NCBI RefSeq assembly: GCF_009936215.1
Contig: NZ_AP019551.1
Coordinates: forward strand, 310,001-374,000
Length of the DNA stretch: 64,000 bases
DNA from: Athalassotoga saccharophila
Lineage (GTDB): Bacteria > Thermotogota > Thermotogae > Mesoaciditogales > Mesoaciditogaceae
Direction of reading: 5' to 3'
A program made the position numbers and the translations under genes. Positions 42,560 through 49,851 of this stretch are shown here, in pieces. Position 1 is the stretch's first letter, and each line of letters begins with the position of its first letter. The notes beneath the pieces are model-generated. The model saw only the letters and a list, made by a program, of their open reading frames with translations. It did not search any database and was not told the DNA's origin.

Positions 42560-43939
42560 TTAAATTCTATGAGTAGATGGATTCAACTTTACCACGTCAG
42601 AAATACTTTCAAGACTCTCGCCTTTGGGCTCTTTTAAGAATAAGGTTGTCAGAATTCCGGCAAAGGATACAATTGAAATTATCACAAAGGTTGCGTTGAA
42701 TCCTACCGCCGATAACACTATTGGAAATAAAAATGTACCTACAAAGGCTCCAACCTTACCAATGCCTGCCGAAATTCCGTGGCCCGTTGTCCTGTACTCT
42801 GTCGGGAAAAGTTCCGAAGGAAGTACAAAGGTAGTTGTATTCGGACCGAATTCTGTAAACAAATAACTTATGCCATATACCGCAAAGAAAAGGCCTACCT
42901 GTTTTTCTATATCTGGTATTAGACCTATTAGAAGAAATGATACACCCATAATCGCAAATCCTACCAATTGGATTGGTTTTCTTCCTATTTTATCGATGAG
43001 CGCTATCGCTAAAATGTATCCGGGTACCGCAAAAACGAGGAAGATCAAAAGCGTGTAAAGTGTCTTCATCTCCAAAGACATACTTGAAGAGATCGAGTTC
43101 AAAACAAGAGGCGTAGAAATGGTATTCCCGTAATAAGCGTAATCCATCAAAAACCAACTGCCAGCAGTGCCAAAAAGCGTTAGCATGAGTTTTTTGTTCG
43201 TCAAAAATTCTTTCAAACTACTGCGCTTCTTTTCGACCACATTCTCTTTGTCAGTTTTAACATCTTTGTTCATAAACTTTCCAACATCCTCAAGCGCTTT
43301 TTTTCTGTCTCCAAGCACTTGAGCCGTGTATCTCGGTGATTCAGGAATCTTTCTTCTTAAATATATGACCATCAACGCAGGAATTGCACCTATCCCGAGC
43401 ATGATTCTCCATGAAAGGTCTGGCGATATATTCAATCCAAGCAATCCCAATGCCACAAGAGGACCTGTTATAAGTCCGACGGCCTGCATTGAAAAAACGA
43501 GACCCACAAGTTTGCCACGGTCTTTTTTGTTAGAGTACTCGCTCATTATAACCGCACTTACCGGATAATCTCCGCCTATACCAATTCCAAGAAGAAACCT
43601 TGATATCAAAAGCCATGTAAAATCTGGAGAGATGGCCGATAATAAGGCTCCCACTGCCATTATAATTGCCTCAACACCGTAGACGGTTTTTCTTCCGAAC
43701 CTATCCGCAATGCGACCAAAGATAAAAGAGCCGATAAGTGCAGATATAAGAGAGATACTTCCCAGAAAGCCTATTTGTGAACTGCTCAACTTCCATATAG
43801 GCGCGATAAGGGATATCGCAATTCCTATTATGAAAAGATCATAGGCATCCGTGAAAAATCCCATCCCTGATACGAACATCGCCTTAAAATGATGCTTCCC
43901 AAGTTCGGCGTTGTCAAGATAATTTTCTATTCTTTCCAT
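42560..43939 (-). CDS. MFS transporter, Pho84/sugar-porter-like
   Basis: A 459-residue, 12-TM major facilitator. FTDAYDLFIIGIAISLIAPI at TM1, GRIADRFGRKTVYG in loop 2-3, RFLLGIGIGGDYPVSAVIMS with the motif seen in phosphate:proton symporters (GGDYPLSA), and RRKIPESPRYT after TM6. Phosphate or an organic acid is the likely substrate. ATG 43939 follows GGAGGTGAAAAG; the longer frame overlaps that site. Monocistronic and divergent from the sulfur-type operon. Confidence 0.85.
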   Translation of the reverse strand: MERIENYLDNAELGKHHFKAMFVSGMGFFTDAYDLFIIGIAISLIAPIWKLSSSQIGFLGSISLISALIGSFIFGRIADRFGRKTVYGVEAIIMAVGALLSAISPDFTWLLISRFLLGIGIGGDYPVSAVIMSEYSNKKDRGKLVGLVFSMQAVGLITGPLVALGLLGLNISPDLSWRIMLGIGAIPALMVIYLRRKIPESPRYTAQVLGDRKKALEDVGKFMNKDVKTDKENVVEKKRSSLKEFLTNKKLMLTLFGTAGSWFLMDYAYYGNTISTPLVLNSISSSMSLEMKTLYTLLIFLVFAVPGYILAIALIDKIGRKPIQLVGFAIMGVSFLLIGLIPDIEKQVGLFFAVYGISYLFTEFGPNTTTFVLPSELFPTEYRTTGHGISAGIGKVGAFVGTFLFPIVLSAVGFNATFVIISIVSFAGILTTLFLKEPKGESLESISDVVKLNPSTHRI

Positions 43940-44041
43940 CTTTTCACCTCCGAACAAATGATGCTACTTTATTTTTATCTCTTCTTTATCAACTTTACAC
44001 AGGCATTAAGTTTTACTTATAGGGGTATAACTTTTTTGTAT

Positions 44042-44070
44042 TTGACAGATTAATAAATTCATTTTATACT
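44042..44070 (+). promoter_or_regulatory. Near-consensus promoter of the DsrE-TauE-YeeE operon
   Basis: TTGACA (44042-44047) and TATACT (44065-44070) with 17-nt spacing. The start codon of the first gene lies 22 nt beyond the -10 box. The T-rich sequence just upstream includes AACTT-type inverted repeats around a GGGG stretch (44010-44033). Confidence 0.8.
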
Positions 44071-44092
44071 TACAAAGAATGGAGGTGCTGCT

Positions 44093-44416
44093 TTGAAAGT
44101 ACTTTTTCACATTGACGAGTCTGTTATGTGGGATCTTACGATAAGAAATTTGAATAATTTCATCAAAGACATCGATGAAGAATTCTCAATAACGGTTGTT
44201 GCAAATGGAGATGCCATCAACGGCTACATAGATGAGAAATTATTGGATCAGATGAAGATACTTTCAAAACATGTAACTTTCATCTCATGTCTTAATTCGA
44301 TGAAAAAAGAGCATGTAGAACCATCCGCGCTTCCAGATTTTGTCAAAATCGTTCCGTCGGGCGTTGTTGAGATTGCGAAACTCGAAGAAAAAGGTTTCCA
44401 TTACATAAAACCTTAA
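44093..44416 (+). CDS. DsrE-family protein
   Basis: A 107-residue DsrE/F-like protein. MKVLFHIDESVMWDLTIRNL, VVANGDAINGYI and the C-terminal VPSGVVEIAKLEEKGFHYIK give the family fold. The single cysteine in TFISCLNSMK sits at the position used for sulfur transfer in several members. TTG start behind GGAGG. First gene of the operon and the likely sulfur-handling carrier, by inference. Confidence 0.8.
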   Translation: MKVLFHIDESVMWDLTIRNLNNFIKDIDEEFSITVVANGDAINGYIDEKLLDQMKILSKHVTFISCLNSMKKEHVEPSALPDFVKIVPSGVVEIAKLEEKGFHYIKP

Positions 44417-44426
44417 GGAGGTTTGT

Positions 44427-45206
44427 ATGGATATTCTTGAGATCGTTTATGGATCTGTAATCGGTCTTTCTCTGGGATTAACAGGTGCGGGTGGATCGAT
44501 AATAACAATTCCTATTTTGATATATCTGTTAGGCATGAATGCCCACGTCGCAACCGGAACAAGTCTTGTCATCGTCGGTGTGGGAGCACTTGCTGGAGCG
44601 ATACAATACGCATTCGGAAAAACGAAATATCTTCACTGGAAGGTGGCATTACTTTTTGCAATCGCGGGAATAGTTGGGGCCTTTTTGGGATCTTATTTCA
44701 ACGCCTTGATGCCTTCGTACTTGATACTTTATCTCTTCGCGGCCTTAATGGTTGTGATAGGCATCATGATGTTAACGAGAAAAAATTATGGTAAAGACGA
44801 TGAAATTCCGAGTTTGAAAAACCTCAAAGGATTATCGGAATGGTCAAAATTCGTCGGGGCGGGATTGTTCATAGGATTAATGACGGGCTTTTTCGGAGTT
44901 GGCGGCGGCTTTTTGATAGTACCCGTTTTAGTTTTGATACTCGATTTTCCTATGAAGCATGCCATAGCGACGAGTTTGATGGTAATAGCGCTGAATTGTT
45001 TGTGGGGAATATTATCAAGGCTTGGCGGTGTCGGAACGATAGCATGGGGTACGGCATTGTACCTTGTCATCGGTGCGGTAGCCGGTATCGTGATAGGCGT
45101 TCTGATCGCCAAAAAGATAAGACCGGGATCCCTTACGAAGATATTCGCTTACTTTGTAATAGCGCTGGCAATTTACATGTTTGTAAGAACTATGGGCATT
45201 ATTTGA
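44427..45206 (+). CDS. TauE/SafE-family sulfite/organosulfonate transporter
   Basis: A 259-residue integral membrane protein with about eight TM segments in two related halves. The halves carry GLSLGLTGAGGSIITIPILI and GLMTGFFGVGGGFLIVPVLV, the repeated family signature. Members move sulfite, sulfoacetate or other anions. Located 10 nt after the DsrE gene behind AAGGAGG. Confidence 0.88.
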   Translation: MDILEIVYGSVIGLSLGLTGAGGSIITIPILIYLLGMNAHVATGTSLVIVGVGALAGAIQYAFGKTKYLHWKVALLFAIAGIVGAFLGSYFNALMPSYLILYLFAALMVVIGIMMLTRKNYGKDDEIPSLKNLKGLSEWSKFVGAGLFIGLMTGFFGVGGGFLIVPVLVLILDFPMKHAIATSLMVIALNCLWGILSRLGGVGTIAWGTALYLVIGAVAGIVIGVLIAKKIRPGSLTKIFAYFVIALAIYMFVRTMGII

Positions 45207-45223
45207 GATAAGGAGGAATTATC

Positions 45224-46612
45224 ATGAAAACGGTCGATGTTTTGACAATAGGTGCGGGTGGAGGAGCATATCCTGCCGGATTCAGGCTTGCAAGATCTGG
45301 TATGGATGTTGTCATGATCGATGACAAGGGCGTCATGAGCGGAAATTGCCTTGCCGAAGGATGCGTTCCGTCGAAAGCCATCAGAGAATCTGTAAATCTT
45401 TACAAAACATCTAAAAAATTCGACTTCTGGGGGTTGGACGGACAGGTCTCTTTTGAATACAAAAAGATAATCGCCCACAAAGATAACGTTCAGAAATTCA
45501 GGTATGCCCAGCATGCCGAAGAGTTAAAAGAAGCGCTTCCACACCTTCAACTTGTGAAAGGTCATGCAAGATTTTTGGACGATCACACACTTGAGGTGAA
45601 ATCGGATAAAGGAGATGAAGTTTACCGCGCAAAGCGCGCGATAATCGTCGCAAGCGGATCGGAAACTTCGATACTTCCGATAAACGGCGCGGATTTGTGC
45701 ATAACCTCTCACGACATCTTTTCAATGAATCCAAAATTGCAAACACTTCCCAAAACGATGACGGTAATCGGCGGAGGATACATAGCGCTTGAGACAGCGA
45801 CCTTTTTCAACGAACTCGGAACGAAGGTTAAACTCTTCAAAAGGTCTGACAGAATACTTTCGGATGAGGTCGATTATAGATTTTCACAAACCTTAAGGCA
45901 ATTTTTGGATCCGAACATAGAAATCGTAACAGGCGCGCGCGTTATGGAAGTCGAGAGGGTTCAAGATGGATACAGAATGAGATACGTAAAAGATGACAAG
46001 ACGGAAAGCGTAACTTCTGATATCGTCATGATGGCCGTCGGAAGAAGGTCTGTGATTCCCGAAGGTGCAGAAAAAATAGGGATAAAAACAGAACATGGAA
46101 GGATAATTGTAAACAACGCAATGCAGACAAATATTCCCCACATCTATGCCCCGGGTGATGTCAACGGACTTTCAATGCTTTTCCATTCGGCCGTAAGACA
46201 ATCCCTTGTGGCGGCAAACAACATAATGGCAGGAAATACTCCCATCGATTACATGAATTTCAAAACAGTTCCGACAACCGTTTTCACCTTTCCGGAGGGC
46301 GCTTACGTGGGGATCTTGCCCGATGAGGCGAAGTCAAAGGGAATTGAACTTGTCGAAACATCATCGCCGTTCAAAATCGATGCCCGAGCGCAGATCTTCG
46401 GAGAGATGGACGGAGAGATAAGAGAATTTTTCGATGCCGAGACGATGAAGATAGTCGGAGCATGGGTAATAGGTCTTGATGCCGGGCTTTTGATAGGAGA
46501 ACTTGCAAGACTTGTCGAGGGAGGATTTACCGTAAAAGAGGTTGCTGAATTCGCCGATCAACATCCCACGACTGCCGAAGGTATAGTAAAGGCTGCAAGA
46601 AAATTGATATGA
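45224..46612 (+). CDS. Lpd-like pyridine nucleotide-disulfide oxidoreductase
   Basis: A 462-residue flavoprotein with FAD motif TIGAGGGAYPAGFRLA, disulfide SGNCLAEGCVPSKAIRES, NAD motif TVIGGGYIALETATFF, IYAPGDVNGLSMLFHSAVRQ and the C-terminal HPTTAEGIVKAA. It differs from the canonical lpdA at 24377: GAGGGAYP replaces GGGPAG, and the acidic partner after HPT is retained. With no lipoyl-protein genes nearby, its disulfide substrate may be a sulfur carrier or persulfide. This is an inference from the operon. Confidence 0.85.
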   Translation: MKTVDVLTIGAGGGAYPAGFRLARSGMDVVMIDDKGVMSGNCLAEGCVPSKAIRESVNLYKTSKKFDFWGLDGQVSFEYKKIIAHKDNVQKFRYAQHAEELKEALPHLQLVKGHARFLDDHTLEVKSDKGDEVYRAKRAIIVASGSETSILPINGADLCITSHDIFSMNPKLQTLPKTMTVIGGGYIALETATFFNELGTKVKLFKRSDRILSDEVDYRFSQTLRQFLDPNIEIVTGARVMEVERVQDGYRMRYVKDDKTESVTSDIVMMAVGRRSVIPEGAEKIGIKTEHGRIIVNNAMQTNIPHIYAPGDVNGLSMLFHSAVRQSLVAANNIMAGNTPIDYMNFKTVPTTVFTFPEGAYVGILPDEAKSKGIELVETSSPFKIDARAQIFGEMDGEIREFFDAETMKIVGAWVIGLDAGLLIGELARLVEGGFTVKEVAEFADQHPTTAEGIVKAARKLI

Positions 46613-46653
46613 AATTTTTCGGTACATCATTTTGAAGTGGGAAGGTGATGTGT

Positions 46654-46710
46654 ATGGCAGAAGAAAACTTTCTTTCTGTGCAACAAGGGAAAAGGGGGGT
46701 GATAATATGA
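46654..46710 (+). CDS. Candidate 18-residue leader/micro-ORF
   Basis: ATG 46654 is preceded by GGGAAGGTGAT and encodes MAEENFLSVQQGKRGVII. Its stop overlaps the ATG of the YeeE/YedE gene (ATGA). The position and overlap suggest a translated leader peptide coupled to the transporter, but no homologue can be checked here. Confidence 0.35.
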   Translation: MAEENFLSVQQGKRGVII

Positions 46711-47945
46711 AAGGAATTCTTTTTACCGCACCGCAGTGGGTAGGGATCTTGATCGGATTCGTTATAGGAGCCTTAGCAGAAGCATGGGGAATCGCAAATC
46801 CAGAATCAATAATAAGGCTGGTCAGATGGAAAGACAGACTCTTTATAACATGTATCGCCCTTGGCGGGGCGATTGCCGTGCTTGTGCTTTACGCTCTATA
46901 TGCGATGGGCATAAACATGCACTTCAGTTTGAAACCGTTGTACTGGATCGGTGTCGGATTGGGTGGAGCGATATTTGGAATAGGACTGGCTTTATCAGGA
47001 TATTTTCCCGGCTCTGAATGGATGTCACTTGGAGAAGGACGGCGTGATGCTTTGTTTGCAATTCCGGGAGGGTTACTCGGAGCCGCAACATGGACGTTGC
47101 TCTTTCAGACCTCCGCAGGTCAGTGGCTTGTGAACACTTTCAACAGCGGTTCTGTGATAATCACGGGTCAAACAATAGCAAGTTTGAGCCCATTGACTCT
47201 CTTCTTGATTGCCATTCCTTATGCCATAGGGCTATTTTTACTCGCTTATTTTTTGCCGAGATTTCCGAAAACCAAGCACAGTTGTCTGAGATCTCTTATC
47301 GGAAGAGGCAAATACGATGAAAATACCCCTCTACTTAAGGAAATACGTGAAGATACCGCCGCGTATTTACTTGAAGGATCTATAGCAAAAAAGGGAAGTA
47401 AGGCAGAAAAATTTGCCAAAACAATTTCTTCAGAACCAAACGTTTATTCGCCGTTATTGGTACTTATCGCCGCCGGAGTCGGAATAACGGTTGTAATCGG
47501 CATTATGTTACACCAGATCTTCGGTGAATCGACCACGTACTCGTGGATAGTTGGCGTGCTTTTGATGCCTTCTTACAAATATTCCGTAAGCGTCATCAAT
47601 CATATAGGATGGGAGCCTTTTTCGGATATAGGAACGTTTTTGGGTGCTTTCTTTTCGGCCGTGGTGCTTACCAAAAGATTCACGGCCTTTCGTAAAGTTG
47701 TGCCACCATCATGGAGAAATCGTTTCGGTAATGAAGAGTGGAAAAGGGCAATCGGTGTTTTCATAGGAAGTTTTCTGATGCTCTTCGGTGCAAGAATGGC
47801 TGGTGGATGTGCGTCGGGACATATCTTAAGCGGCGTCGTTCAGATGGCTGCAAGTGGGCTTTACTTCGGTCTGATCGTCATGATCGCCGGTGTCATAACT
47901 GCAGCGATCGTTTACGGTAAAACTTCCGAAAAGGTTAAAAATTGA
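46707..47945 (+). CDS. YeeE/YedE-family sulfur-compound transporter
   Basis: A 412-residue membrane protein with two YeeE/YedE repeats. The second has the cysteine motif MAGGCASGHILSG. The first has SGYFPGSEWMSLGEGRRDAL, where related proteins usually have a cysteine (GYCPGT-like). Members import thiosulfate or related species. GGGGGGTGATAAT precedes ATG 46707; the long upstream frame from 46632 lacks support. The middle (KKGSKAEKFAKT) is a cytoplasmic loop. Confidence 0.85.
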   Translation: MKGILFTAPQWVGILIGFVIGALAEAWGIANPESIIRLVRWKDRLFITCIALGGAIAVLVLYALYAMGINMHFSLKPLYWIGVGLGGAIFGIGLALSGYFPGSEWMSLGEGRRDALFAIPGGLLGAATWTLLFQTSAGQWLVNTFNSGSVIITGQTIASLSPLTLFLIAIPYAIGLFLLAYFLPRFPKTKHSCLRSLIGRGKYDENTPLLKEIREDTAAYLLEGSIAKKGSKAEKFAKTISSEPNVYSPLLVLIAAGVGITVVIGIMLHQIFGESTTYSWIVGVLLMPSYKYSVSVINHIGWEPFSDIGTFLGAFFSAVVLTKRFTAFRKVVPPSWRNRFGNEEWKRAIGVFIGSFLMLFGARMAGGCASGHILSGVVQMAASGLYFGLIVMIAGVITAAIVYGKTSEKVKN

Positions 47946-47961
47946 TGGGAGATGAGATGTT

Positions 47962-48153
47962 ATGAAAACTGTGAATGTGTTGGTCGTAATAGGCATAATT
48001 GCCACGATCATAATTGCGGCCATAGCGACTGGAAATTCAAATGGTTACGCTCCTGACATGAACGCATGGTTTGCCGCACTTATCATTCCCGTTTTATTAC
48101 CACTCGCCGCGGTTGCTTATTACAACGAAAAGGATCCTTACGATAAGAAATGA
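47962..48153 (+). CDS. Small two-TM membrane protein
   Basis: 63 residues with two hydrophobic segments, VNVLVVIGIIATIIIAAIAT and FAALIIPVLLPLAAVAYYNE, and a charged C-terminus. A GGGAG site precedes it, and it follows the YeeE/YedE gene by 16 nt. It is probably an auxiliary subunit of that transporter (inference). No known family recognised. Confidence 0.7.
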   Translation: MKTVNVLVVIGIIATIIIAAIATGNSNGYAPDMNAWFAALIIPVLLPLAAVAYYNEKDPYDKK

Positions 48154-48197
48154 CCTTTTAGTTCAATAAATACACAGAAATAACGGAGGCGATAAAA

Positions 48198-48440
48198 ACG
48201 AACAGTGTGGAATTCATACCCGGTGCAACTATCACAATAGACGATGATAGGTGCATAGGATGCAGAAAATGTGTTGAAGTCTGTCCTCAAGACGTTTACG
48301 AACTGGTAAGAAGGCCGGGAGAAACCGACCCAAACAAGGAATTCAAATCTGTGGCCGTCGCGCCTGAAAAGTGCATACTTTGTCTTTCATGCCTTGAAAT
48401 ATGCGCAAAAGACGCAATATACATTGACGGACAGCAATAG
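48198..48440 (+). CDS. 2[4Fe-4S] ferredoxin
   Basis: 80 residues. Cluster-binding motifs are CIGCRKCVEVCP and CILCLSCLEICAKDAIYIDG, two complete CxxCxxCxxxC sets, so it carries two 4Fe-4S clusters and can pass electrons to or from the Lpd-like or DUF169 proteins. The start is odd: GGAGG (48185-48189) is 8 nt before ACG 48198, while the first standard codon (GTG 48207) is 17 nt away. ACG initiation or a base error are the options. Confidence 0.85.
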   Translation, partial: TNSVEFIPGATITIDDDRCIGCRKCVEVCPQDVYELVRRPGETDPNKEFKSVAVAPEKCILCLSCLEICAKDAIYIDGQQ

Positions 48441-48451
48441 GAGTGATTGAA

Positions 48452-49246
48452 ATGGCAGGACCGCTTTTAAAAGAACAACTCATCAAACCAAAGTATGACT
48501 GGAAGAGATTGACAGATCAGATCGTCGAAAAGTTGGAACTCAAATATGAGCCCGTCGGAGTTTATTTCATACAGGCAGAACATGCCGAAAGGTACGAAAA
48601 GTTCTTTGAAAATTTTCCAAAACCTAACGGACGTCTTACCTACTGTCAGGCAGTCGATACAGTAAGAGGGGCCGCGAATTATTCCAAACTTGCCGAAAGA
48701 CCGGACGTGCTTGTCCTCAAAGCAAAAGACTTCTTATGCTCTGCCGGAGCGGCCAATTTGGGATTTTACGATCTGCCCGAGCCAATAAAAAACGGCGAAA
48801 GAGACTTTTTACTAAGAAGATTTCCATCCATAGAGACCTCAAGGGTAACGCGTGAGATGATACCACACTTTGAGGCTGGAACGACTGCGGATGTTATCGT
48901 TTTTAAACTGTCCATATCACCTGTTGATCCACATGTCGTGCTTGTCTTTGGAAATCCAGCGCAAATACTTTCGCTCGAAGGGCCTTACGTCATGAAAAAA
49001 GGAGGCAGATTGGAAGTTGATCTACTTGGAACGTGCGGAGTATGCGCTGAAATGACAGTATCGCCACTTTTAAACAGAAAGATGAATCTTTCGACACTTT
49101 GCGGAGGGGCAAGATCACATGCGTTCAAAGATCCAACTGAAATGGGAGCAGGTATACCCGGCATCGAATTTCCAGAACTTGTCGAGAACCTACTTGCCAG
49201 ACAGAACATTCCAAAAAGACAGGATTTGCCAAAGGAACTTCGGTGA
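48452..49246 (+). CDS. DUF169 protein
   Basis: 264 residues. DUF169 features with conserved cysteines: LTYCQAVDTVRG, KDFLCSAGAANLGF, LGTCGVCAEMTVSPL and STLCGGARSH. Four cysteine sites in conserved positions suggest binding of a metal or iron-sulfur cluster, or sulfur chemistry, but the family has no settled function. ATG 48452 follows GGAGTGATTGAA. Close spacing to the ferredoxin gene (11 nt) points to an electron-transfer link. Confidence 0.85.
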   Translation: MAGPLLKEQLIKPKYDWKRLTDQIVEKLELKYEPVGVYFIQAEHAERYEKFFENFPKPNGRLTYCQAVDTVRGAANYSKLAERPDVLVLKAKDFLCSAGAANLGFYDLPEPIKNGERDFLLRRFPSIETSRVTREMIPHFEAGTTADVIVFKLSISPVDPHVVLVFGNPAQILSLEGPYVMKKGGRLEVDLLGTCGVCAEMTVSPLLNRKMNLSTLCGGARSHAFKDPTEMGAGIPGIEFPELVENLLARQNIPKRQDLPKELR

Positions 49247-49497
49247 AGCCGAAAGAAAACACAATTGAAAAAATAGACAGACTTTTTGAAAAGATATACG
49301 CCACCAATCTCGATGAAGAAAGTATCCGAATTCTTAAAGATCTGCAGGATCATCTTCATTCGATGAATCTTCACAAAGCAAAGGTGGCGTATTTCTCTTT
49401 GATAAAATCGAAATTGAATTATATCTTCGAAATGTTAAATTCATCAAAAGTGGATGAATCGAAGAAAGAAATAAAAGAATTGAAGAAATTTTTGTGA
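49243..49497 (+). CDS. Small helical protein of unknown function
   Basis: 84 residues, almost entirely helical and charged (ENTIEKIDRLFEKIYATNL, then KAKVAYFSLIKSKLNYIFEM). GTG start overlapping the DUF169 stop by 4 nt, so probably translated. No motif recognised. Confidence 0.65.
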   Translation: MKPKENTIEKIDRLFEKIYATNLDEESIRILKDLQDHLHSMNLHKAKVAYFSLIKSKLNYIFEMLNSSKVDESKKEIKELKKFL

Positions 49498-49506
49498 GGT
49501 AGAATC

Positions 49507-49851
49507 ATGCTTGAGTGTCAAGAATTCAATAAATTAAGCGAGATAGAAATTAAGATATTGAAATACCACAAATTAATGGGGGCGGATTATTCTAAACTCA
49601 TCTCTCACAGATTCGGGATAAAATTGTGCGAGGCAATGGCAATTCACAAAAAACTTTTCGATCTGGGCTTTCTTGAAAAGGTCAGCGGAAGTATAATAGA
49701 TTACCACACAAACATAAAAAGATTAAAAACGATAAAGCACAGAAACCACACTTACTACGTTCTAAGTAGAAAAGGTGAACTTTGTCTCAGAGAATACGAA
49801 AGAGAATTCGGAGAAATCCAACTGGATCTGAAGTATCCTTACAAAAGATGA
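49507..49851 (+). CDS. DUF2250 winged-helix protein
   Basis: 114 residues. ILKYHKLMGADYSKLISHRF, then LCEAMAIHKKLFDLGFLEKV and TIKHRNHTYYVLSRKG are typical of DUF2250, a predicted winged-helix domain. It may regulate this operon, but its position at the 3' end gives only indirect support. It ends 18 nt before the convergent exchanger gene's stop; no clear terminator hairpin was seen. Confidence 0.75.
   Translation: MLECQEFNKLSEIEIKILKYHKLMGADYSKLISHRFGIKLCEAMAIHKKLFDLGFLEKVSGSIIDYHTNIKRLKTIKHRNHTYYVLSRKGELCLREYEREFGEIQLDLKYPYKR

Follow-up and report, generated by a model that had tools for sequence, protein, structure and literature searches.

What is the function of a gene cluster that sets three families tied to sulfur (DsrE, TauE and YeeE) and a ferredoxin beside the uncharacterised family DUF169 in Athalassotoga saccharophila, an anaerobic thermoacidophile of the Thermotogota? 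The cluster lies in the stretch of 64,000 nucleotides analysed here (the window), which is chromosome 310001-374000 in an assembly of three contigs and 2,044,999 bases; the genome of strain NAS-01 has been described as a chromosome of 1,957,762 bases with two plasmids of 43,703 and 43,534 bases (PMC7163026). Thiosulfate, cysteine/cystine and Fe(III) are listed as used by the species (PMC7795431). The genes form a real set with an archaeal flavour, for which sulfur uptake combined with ferredoxin- and NAD(P)H-linked processing is the best reading. We put somewhat short of an even chance on the operon serving the uptake and redox processing of a sulfane-sulfur compound, most likely thiosulfate, in the anaerobic thermoacidophilic Mesoaciditogaceae. 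In favour of this reading we count the three sulfur-tied families, the recurrence of the core in four relatives, the TsuA fold of the YeeE, the response of archaeal yeeE to sulfur, and the listed thiosulfate use. We also count the co-occurrence of the dihydrolipoamide-dehydrogenase-like flavoprotein (Lpd) with YeeE, its adjacency to DUF2250, the proximity of TauE to YeeE in archaea, a cluster in a sister genus and two other Lpd genes in the genome.

Nine co-directional genes at 44093-49851 on the + strand, separated by gaps of 2-94 nucleotides or overlapping, make up the cluster. They are given here with the promoter, a micro-open reading frame (micro-ORF) and a divergent gene of the major facilitator superfamily (MFS).

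44042-44070, + strand: sigma-70-type promoter TTGACA-17-TATACT, 11/12 match, the best of the region
44093-44416, + strand: DsrE/DsrF-like protein, 107 amino acids, single cysteine C66 (Pfam DsrE 22.0 bits, cut-off 22.7)
44427-45206, + strand: TauE/SafE-family permease, 259 amino acids (Pfam TauE 165 bits, cut-off 32.6)
45224-46612, + strand: Lpd, 462 amino acids (NCBIfam NF004943 619 bits, cut-off 432)
46654-46710, + strand: 18-codon micro-ORF, MAEENFLSVQQGKRGVII, probable 5' remnant of a replaced yeeE
46707-47945, + strand: YeeE/YedE-family transporter, 412 amino acids, IFGESTT clade (Sulf_transp, PF04143, 77.6 bits, cut-off 27)
47962-48153, + strand: small two-helix membrane protein, 63 amino acids, probable YeeE subunit (homologues adjoin or fuse to YeeE)
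48207-48440, + strand: 2[4Fe-4S] ferredoxin, 77 amino acids, start codon uncertain (Fer4_7 57.9 bits)
48443-49246, + strand: DUF169 protein (PF02596), 267 amino acids (Pfam 149.7 bits, cut-off 27)
49243-49497, + strand: helical protein without assigned function, 84 amino acids (none of the families above cut-off)
49507-49851, + strand: DUF2250 protein (PF10007), 114 amino acids, probable winged-helix regulator (Pfam 52.5 bits, cut-off 24.4)
42560-43957, - strand: divergently transcribed MFS transporter similar to phosphate:H+ symporters, possible associate (TIGR00887 366 bits, cut-off 610)

We aligned the window proteins to the loci of four relatives, two of them congeners (L012 and L013, from genomes G002 and G003) and two from other genera (L014 and L015, from G005 and G009). 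Both congeners have the order DsrE-TauE-Lpd-[YeeE]-ferredoxin-DUF169-helical protein-DUF2250, the L013 contig stopping inside the helical gene. The other genera have Lpd-ferredoxin-DUF169-helical protein with TauE and DUF2250 nearby; Lpd is broken in L014, and the L015 contig starts at Lpd. TauE copies are 51-89% identical in L012, L013 and L014, and an extra TauE lies downstream in L014 and L015. The ferredoxin is 73-96% identical in the four relatives, where its start lies a few codons upstream, and the helical protein (54-88% identical) comes after DUF169 in all four. Orthologs of DUF169 were found in 5 of 103 Thermotogota genomes, all of them Mesoaciditogaceae (half of the ten genomes of this family), and G006 has retained a broken Lpd and no DUF169. 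Because this core recurs in the relatives, DsrE-TauE-Lpd-ferredoxin-DUF169-helical protein(-DUF2250) is, as judged from gene content and order, a real unit, yet patchy and being lost in places. An earlier note on this DNA had treated the genes as one unit, and they do travel together in every Mesoaciditogaceae genome with DUF169 where the contig permits checking.

The coding regions named in the earlier note are all present, and the Pfam assignments agree with it (E values: DsrE 2e-4, TauE 2e-48, Pyr_redox_2 7e-52, Sulf_transp 2e-21, Fer4_7 1e-15, DUF169 1e-43 and DUF2250 6e-14), DsrE falling just under its cut-off. The single promoter that it had put ahead of the operon was also found in place; it is the sole 11/12 match in the scanned stretch, where 13 promoter-like boxes were counted and 12.6 are expected by chance. 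A TTGAC box is present at the equivalent position 5' of dsrE in three relatives (L012, L013 and L014). Overlapping the -10 region upstream of dsrE in the congener G002 is a perfect inverted repeat (AATACTC-TTGT-GAGTATT, L012:1225-1250), which is a candidate operator and might be that of DUF2250. RNA elements were searched for and none was found.

The window YeeE groups in a clade with proteins of Metallosphaera javensis, other Thermoproteota and one metagenome-assembled genome of the Hyphomicrobiales, and is 53-59% identical to the Thermoproteota proteins (59% to that of M. javensis). A sequence search of PDB matched it to TsuA (E 6e-6). The modelled YeeE of L009, which is 57% identical to the window protein (mean predicted local distance difference test score, pLDDT, 71), matched 6LEO in Foldseek with probability 1.00 and a template modelling (TM) score of 0.68 of the target. 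Only YeeE entries, from Spirochaeta thermophila, were found at E < 0.001, and the fused C-terminal part of the model is of low confidence. By this model the clade has the TsuA fold. The NCBIfam TsuA model NF052577 gave the window YeeE 52.9 bits, with a cut-off of 400. Of the TsuA cysteines C22, C91 and C293, compared in StTsuA and the TsuA of the sister genus, only C293 is kept, as C368 in GGCASGH. C49 and C193, in columns that are not cysteine in TsuA, recur in 16-17 of the 18 clade sequences, and C368 is conserved in the clade as well. In TsuA, C91 and C293 are reported to be indispensable, and in SoxT1B all three cysteines are (PMC11582611). The clade, as modelled and aligned, is thus YeeE by fold and not TsuA by its defining residues, and an ordinary TsuA is ruled out by the cut-off and the cysteines. 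Models of the selenium YedE gave no match to the window YeeE.

Homologues of the small membrane protein lie directly after YeeE in six loci (L010, L011, L032, L033, L034 and L044), and one is fused to the YeeE C terminus in L009, so that this protein is very probably a subunit of the transporter. With the TsuA-TsuB system (YeeE-YeeD) of S. thermophila and E. coli, the A. saccharophila genes share the YeeE fold (6LEO), the C293-equivalent cysteine and a possible carrier, the DsrE-like protein, encoded nearby. They differ from it in the extra small membrane subunit, in a YeeE below the TsuA cut-off (53 vs 400 bits) that has C49 and C193 and no equivalents of C22 and C91, and in a genome without TusA or TsuB.

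Among the archaea, TauE was found within two genes of YeeE in three loci (L011, L038 and L039). In Acidianus brierleyi, yeeE was reported to be 211-fold up on elemental sulfur, and YeeE thiosulfate import with sulfite export has been proposed in the Sulfolobaceae, where the putative sulfite exporter is limited to sulfur oxidisers (PMC11323534). M. javensis is part of the pangenome in that study, and the yeeE gene cluster described there is very likely the same as that of the M. javensis relative of the window YeeE. The Sulfolobaceae scheme resembles ours in its close YeeE relatives, in the idea of import and export and in the TauE near YeeE in some archaea. It differs in that these archaea perform aerobic sulfur oxidation with TusA, DsrE3A and HDR, whereas A. 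saccharophila is anaerobic and without TusA and its operon carries Lpd, ferredoxin and DUF169. Of the undescribed system for which the earlier note saw a candidate here, the import and export half has already been published as a proposal for the Sulfolobaceae. For the enzymatic half, centred on DUF169, the searchable literature holds no description, and its backing is conservation in one bacterial family only.

The position of YeeE in the cluster is variable. A. saccharophila has the window YeeE with the 63-residue small membrane protein. L012 has a YeeE of a second type (38% identical), out of frame at its 5' end, L013 has a broken copy of this second type, and L014 and L015 have none. The second type is intact in G006, where it carries the N-terminal hydrophobic extension typical of this type. 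The leader and start of the micro-ORF align with the beginning of the second-type yeeE in L012, and its end overlaps the YeeE start as ATGA; from this alignment, the micro-ORF is best read as the scar of a yeeE replacement. Of the ten genes counted in the earlier note, nine are where it put them and the tenth, the micro-ORF, appears vestigial, so that count was dropped. Nor can YeeE be kept as a fixed member of the core, since it is replaced or missing in relatives. Because the YeeE module is exchangeable, the core can probably also use sulfur that arrives by other routes.

We found no TusA (PF01206) in the entire A. saccharophila genome (profile search, control positive in 11 of 14 genomes; the genome-wide searches were limited to chosen families), nor in any of the genomes carrying the DUF169 cluster. 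The absence of a TusA-like partner, claimed earlier, is thus true beyond the window, and a TusA encoded elsewhere in the genome is ruled out by this search. The single cysteine of the DsrE-like protein is at an equivalent place in the window, L012, L013 and L014, and the L014 ortholog scores 30 bits, over the Pfam cut-off that the window protein narrowly misses. TauE is by family match a predicted permease or exporter.

The Lpd carries the redox pair CLAEGC (C42, C47) and a C-terminal HPTTAE, that is, the CxxxxC and HPxxxE motifs that a working disulfide reductase would be expected to have; its nearest solved relative is 3l8k. With the taxa sampled, its place in the tree is inside the Thermoproteota Lpd (100/99 support) and separate from the remaining Lpd lineages of the Mesoaciditogaceae. 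On this phylogeny the operon Lpd is archaeal-type, with an apparent origin separate from the organism's own two Lpd. These two paralogs are encoded elsewhere in the A. saccharophila genome, as is GcvH, which is present in 10/10 genomes and which the two other Lpd genes can serve. The operon Lpd may accordingly act on lipoamide or on another substrate. A role as the sole Lpd of the organism and the absence of any lipoyl protein are both ruled out by the same genes. Among the Thermoproteota (250 genomes), 5 genomes have both this Lpd type and a YeeE of the clade, where 0.45 are expected (p 1.3e-5, phylogeny ignored). In one archaeon (L079), Lpd adjoins DUF2250, and this archaeal DUF2250 homologue has weak helix-turn-helix matches too. 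The second Lpd paralog of A. saccharophila (L109:5183-9233, chromosome ~1,950,180-1,954,230) lies beside a 2[4Fe-4S] ferredoxin and a cysteine-rich protein of 118 amino acids. Its neighbours, named by eye, resemble ArsR, ArsC and ACR3/BASS-type transporter genes, so the same logic of Lpd, ferredoxin and cysteine-rich protein appears in an arsenic-type cluster.

The four conserved cysteine sites that had been noted in DUF169 (residues 68, 99, 201 and 220) are invariant in 25 divergent members, down to 21% identity with the window protein, and because of these cysteines an iron-sulfur (Fe-S) cluster is plausible. The predicted structure is confident (mean pLDDT 89). A fold search gave no convincing PDB relative (best Foldseek E 0.075), VIA-align reached at best Z 4.7 with thiolase-like rows at background level, by which a new fold is not shown, and a sequence search of PDB found none. 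Among plasmid records, no useful one with close DUF169, YeeE, helical or DUF2250 relatives was found, only one weak DUF169 match in an unannotated record, and a literature search found no paper linking DUF169 with YeeE. In the archaeal loci L046 and L049, other DUF169 paralogs have small neighbours that are cysteine-rich or ferredoxin-like, and members of the family may generally be paired with Fe-S or metal proteins.

Put together as a sulfur route, these parts could work as follows. YeeE with its small membrane subunit would admit the sulfur species, as suggested by family, fold and archaeal relatives, and the single cysteine of the DsrE-like carrier would hold the sulfur in place of TusA. 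Reduced ferredoxin may pass electrons to a cysteine-ligated DUF169, which would cut or reduce the bound sulfur. The Lpd-like flavoprotein, with its CxxxxC and His-Glu motifs, would reset a disulfide at the expense of NAD(P)H, TauE might release sulfite or another anionic product, and DUF2250 presumably regulates the operon. A more specific version, in which the distinct YeeE clade with its own cysteines and small subunit feeds thiosulfate or sulfane sulfur to a DsrE-type carrier independently of TusA, and in which DUF169 is a ferredoxin-fed [4Fe-4S] enzyme that splits it reductively, seems to us improbable as it stands; if true, it would be the first biochemical function for the DUF169 family.

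Several results weigh against the sulfur route. The YeeE slot is empty in L014 and L015 and variable elsewhere, which speaks against a fixed single route: one obliged to start at YeeE is not the whole story. Lacking an equivalent of C91, the window YeeE may have a different substrate, and the DsrE match of the window protein itself is marginal. In the 250 Thermoproteota genomes, DUF169 and YeeE are together in 1 genome with 1.5 expected, and DUF169 and the operon-type Lpd in 0. No linkage of DUF169 with either was thus found there, and among the genomes searched, in a survey without Bacillota, Desulfobacterota, Thermoplasmatota and Pseudomonadota, the DUF169 link was seen in a single bacterial family only. 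The p-value for Lpd and YeeE must be read as ignoring phylogeny. The co-occurrence with the transporters to which the earlier note had looked is seen within the family and, for Lpd with YeeE, in the Thermoproteota, and not for DUF169 with YeeE or Lpd there. No expression or biochemical data on the operon were found in the literature, and the sole phenotype found for a DUF169-TauE neighbourhood is nitrate sensitivity, not sulfur: in Desulfovibrio, mutants in this neighbourhood gain nitrate resistance (PMC4001038). The path from import over carrier and redox step to export, proposed in the earlier note, accordingly keeps the absence of TusA, the YeeE fold and the sulfur-linked relatives on its side, and is weakened by the inconstant YeeE and a DUF169 untied to it in archaea.

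With the Desulfovibrio phenotype in view, the operon may handle an anion other than thiosulfate. In that 'nitrate cluster' (Dde_0597-0605), DUF169 adjoins TauE as it occurs with TauE here; listed with them are two-component signalling genes and one for a PtxB-like protein, not Lpd, ferredoxin, DsrE or YeeE, and the D. vulgaris counterpart is without DUF169 (PMC4001038). The operon might accordingly detoxify or export a harmful anion (sulfite, selenite, tellurite, an arsenical or a nitrate-like oxyanion), the redox proteins converting it and TauE exporting it. The nitrate-resistant mutants, the second set of Lpd, ferredoxin and cysteine-rich protein in the arsenic-type cluster and the ties of YedE-type relatives to selenium (PMC5322559) agree with this. 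The operon, however, has no arsenic, selenium or mercury family match above cut-off, the selenium YedE models are unmatched by its YeeE and the close YeeE relatives respond to sulfur, and we consider this role rather unlikely. A reduction of organic disulfides or polysulfide (cystine, glutathione-like disulfides) as electron sink or for redox balance is about as doubtful. Lpd, ferredoxin and DUF169 would then form a thiol-disulfide reductase, and the transporters would move cystine-derived or persulfide species. The Lpd does belong to a disulfide reductase family with the CxxxxC and His-Glu pair intact, cysteine/cystine is listed as used by both A. saccharophila and Mesoaciditoga (PMC7795431), and the core is present without YeeE in two genera; such a reductase nevertheless leaves the constant DsrE carrier and TauE, and the sulfur-oxyanion type YeeE of the window, unexplained.

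The changing YeeE slot (G002 has another type, G003 a broken one, G005 and G009 none) and the micro-ORF scar at the junction would also suit a mosaic, in which a core with a separate function and an unrelated YeeE module merely happen to share a transcript. Two YeeE types at exactly one position suggest instead that YeeE is selected for there, and YeeE, DsrE and Lpd are linked independently in a sister genus, so we regard a mosaic as quite unlikely. In this sister genus (G007, L116:6634-10749), TusA, a true TsuA, DsrE, an unassigned ORF, DsrH, a GcvH-like lipoyl protein and Lpd stand in a row, a compact thiosulfate or sulfur-relay cluster with a lipoyl carrier in the Thermotogota. Like the window operon, it brings YeeE, DsrE and Lpd together within this bacterial family and is thus an independent sign that the three share one theme. 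It differs in its true TsuA (523 bits, above cut-off) with three cysteines, its TusA and lipoyl-like protein, its lack of DUF169 and TauE, and an Lpd that is an ordinary paralog of the family. Cytoplasmic sulfur oxidation by sHdr-LbpA likewise combines DsrE-type carriers with lipoyl chemistry and has YeeE-like SoxT importers (PMC11582611), whereas among the nine proteins of the operon, to which the search for Hdr was confined, there is no lipoyl carrier or Hdr subunit.

The MFS gene at 42560-43957 recurs near the cluster in two congeners, in divergent orientation in L013 and on the downstream side in L012, and may truly belong to it. In G002, genes resembling those for glutamate decarboxylase, a DsrE-like small protein, an amino-acid antiporter and a potassium channel come after the cluster (L012:8337-12717), which suggests an acid-resistance island, and a transposase-like gene lies upstream.

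If the sulfur uptake and processing reading holds, it would give DUF169, an uncharacterised family of archaea and anaerobic bacteria, a functional setting and a way to test it. The YeeE clade is common to acidophilic archaea and one bacterial lineage; two of the three presumed thiosulfate-relay cysteines are absent, two others are placed elsewhere and a small membrane protein appears as partner. This bears directly on the mechanism of YeeE transport and on sulfur acquisition in the Sulfolobaceae, for which yeeE has been reported as one of the genes that respond strongly to sulfur.

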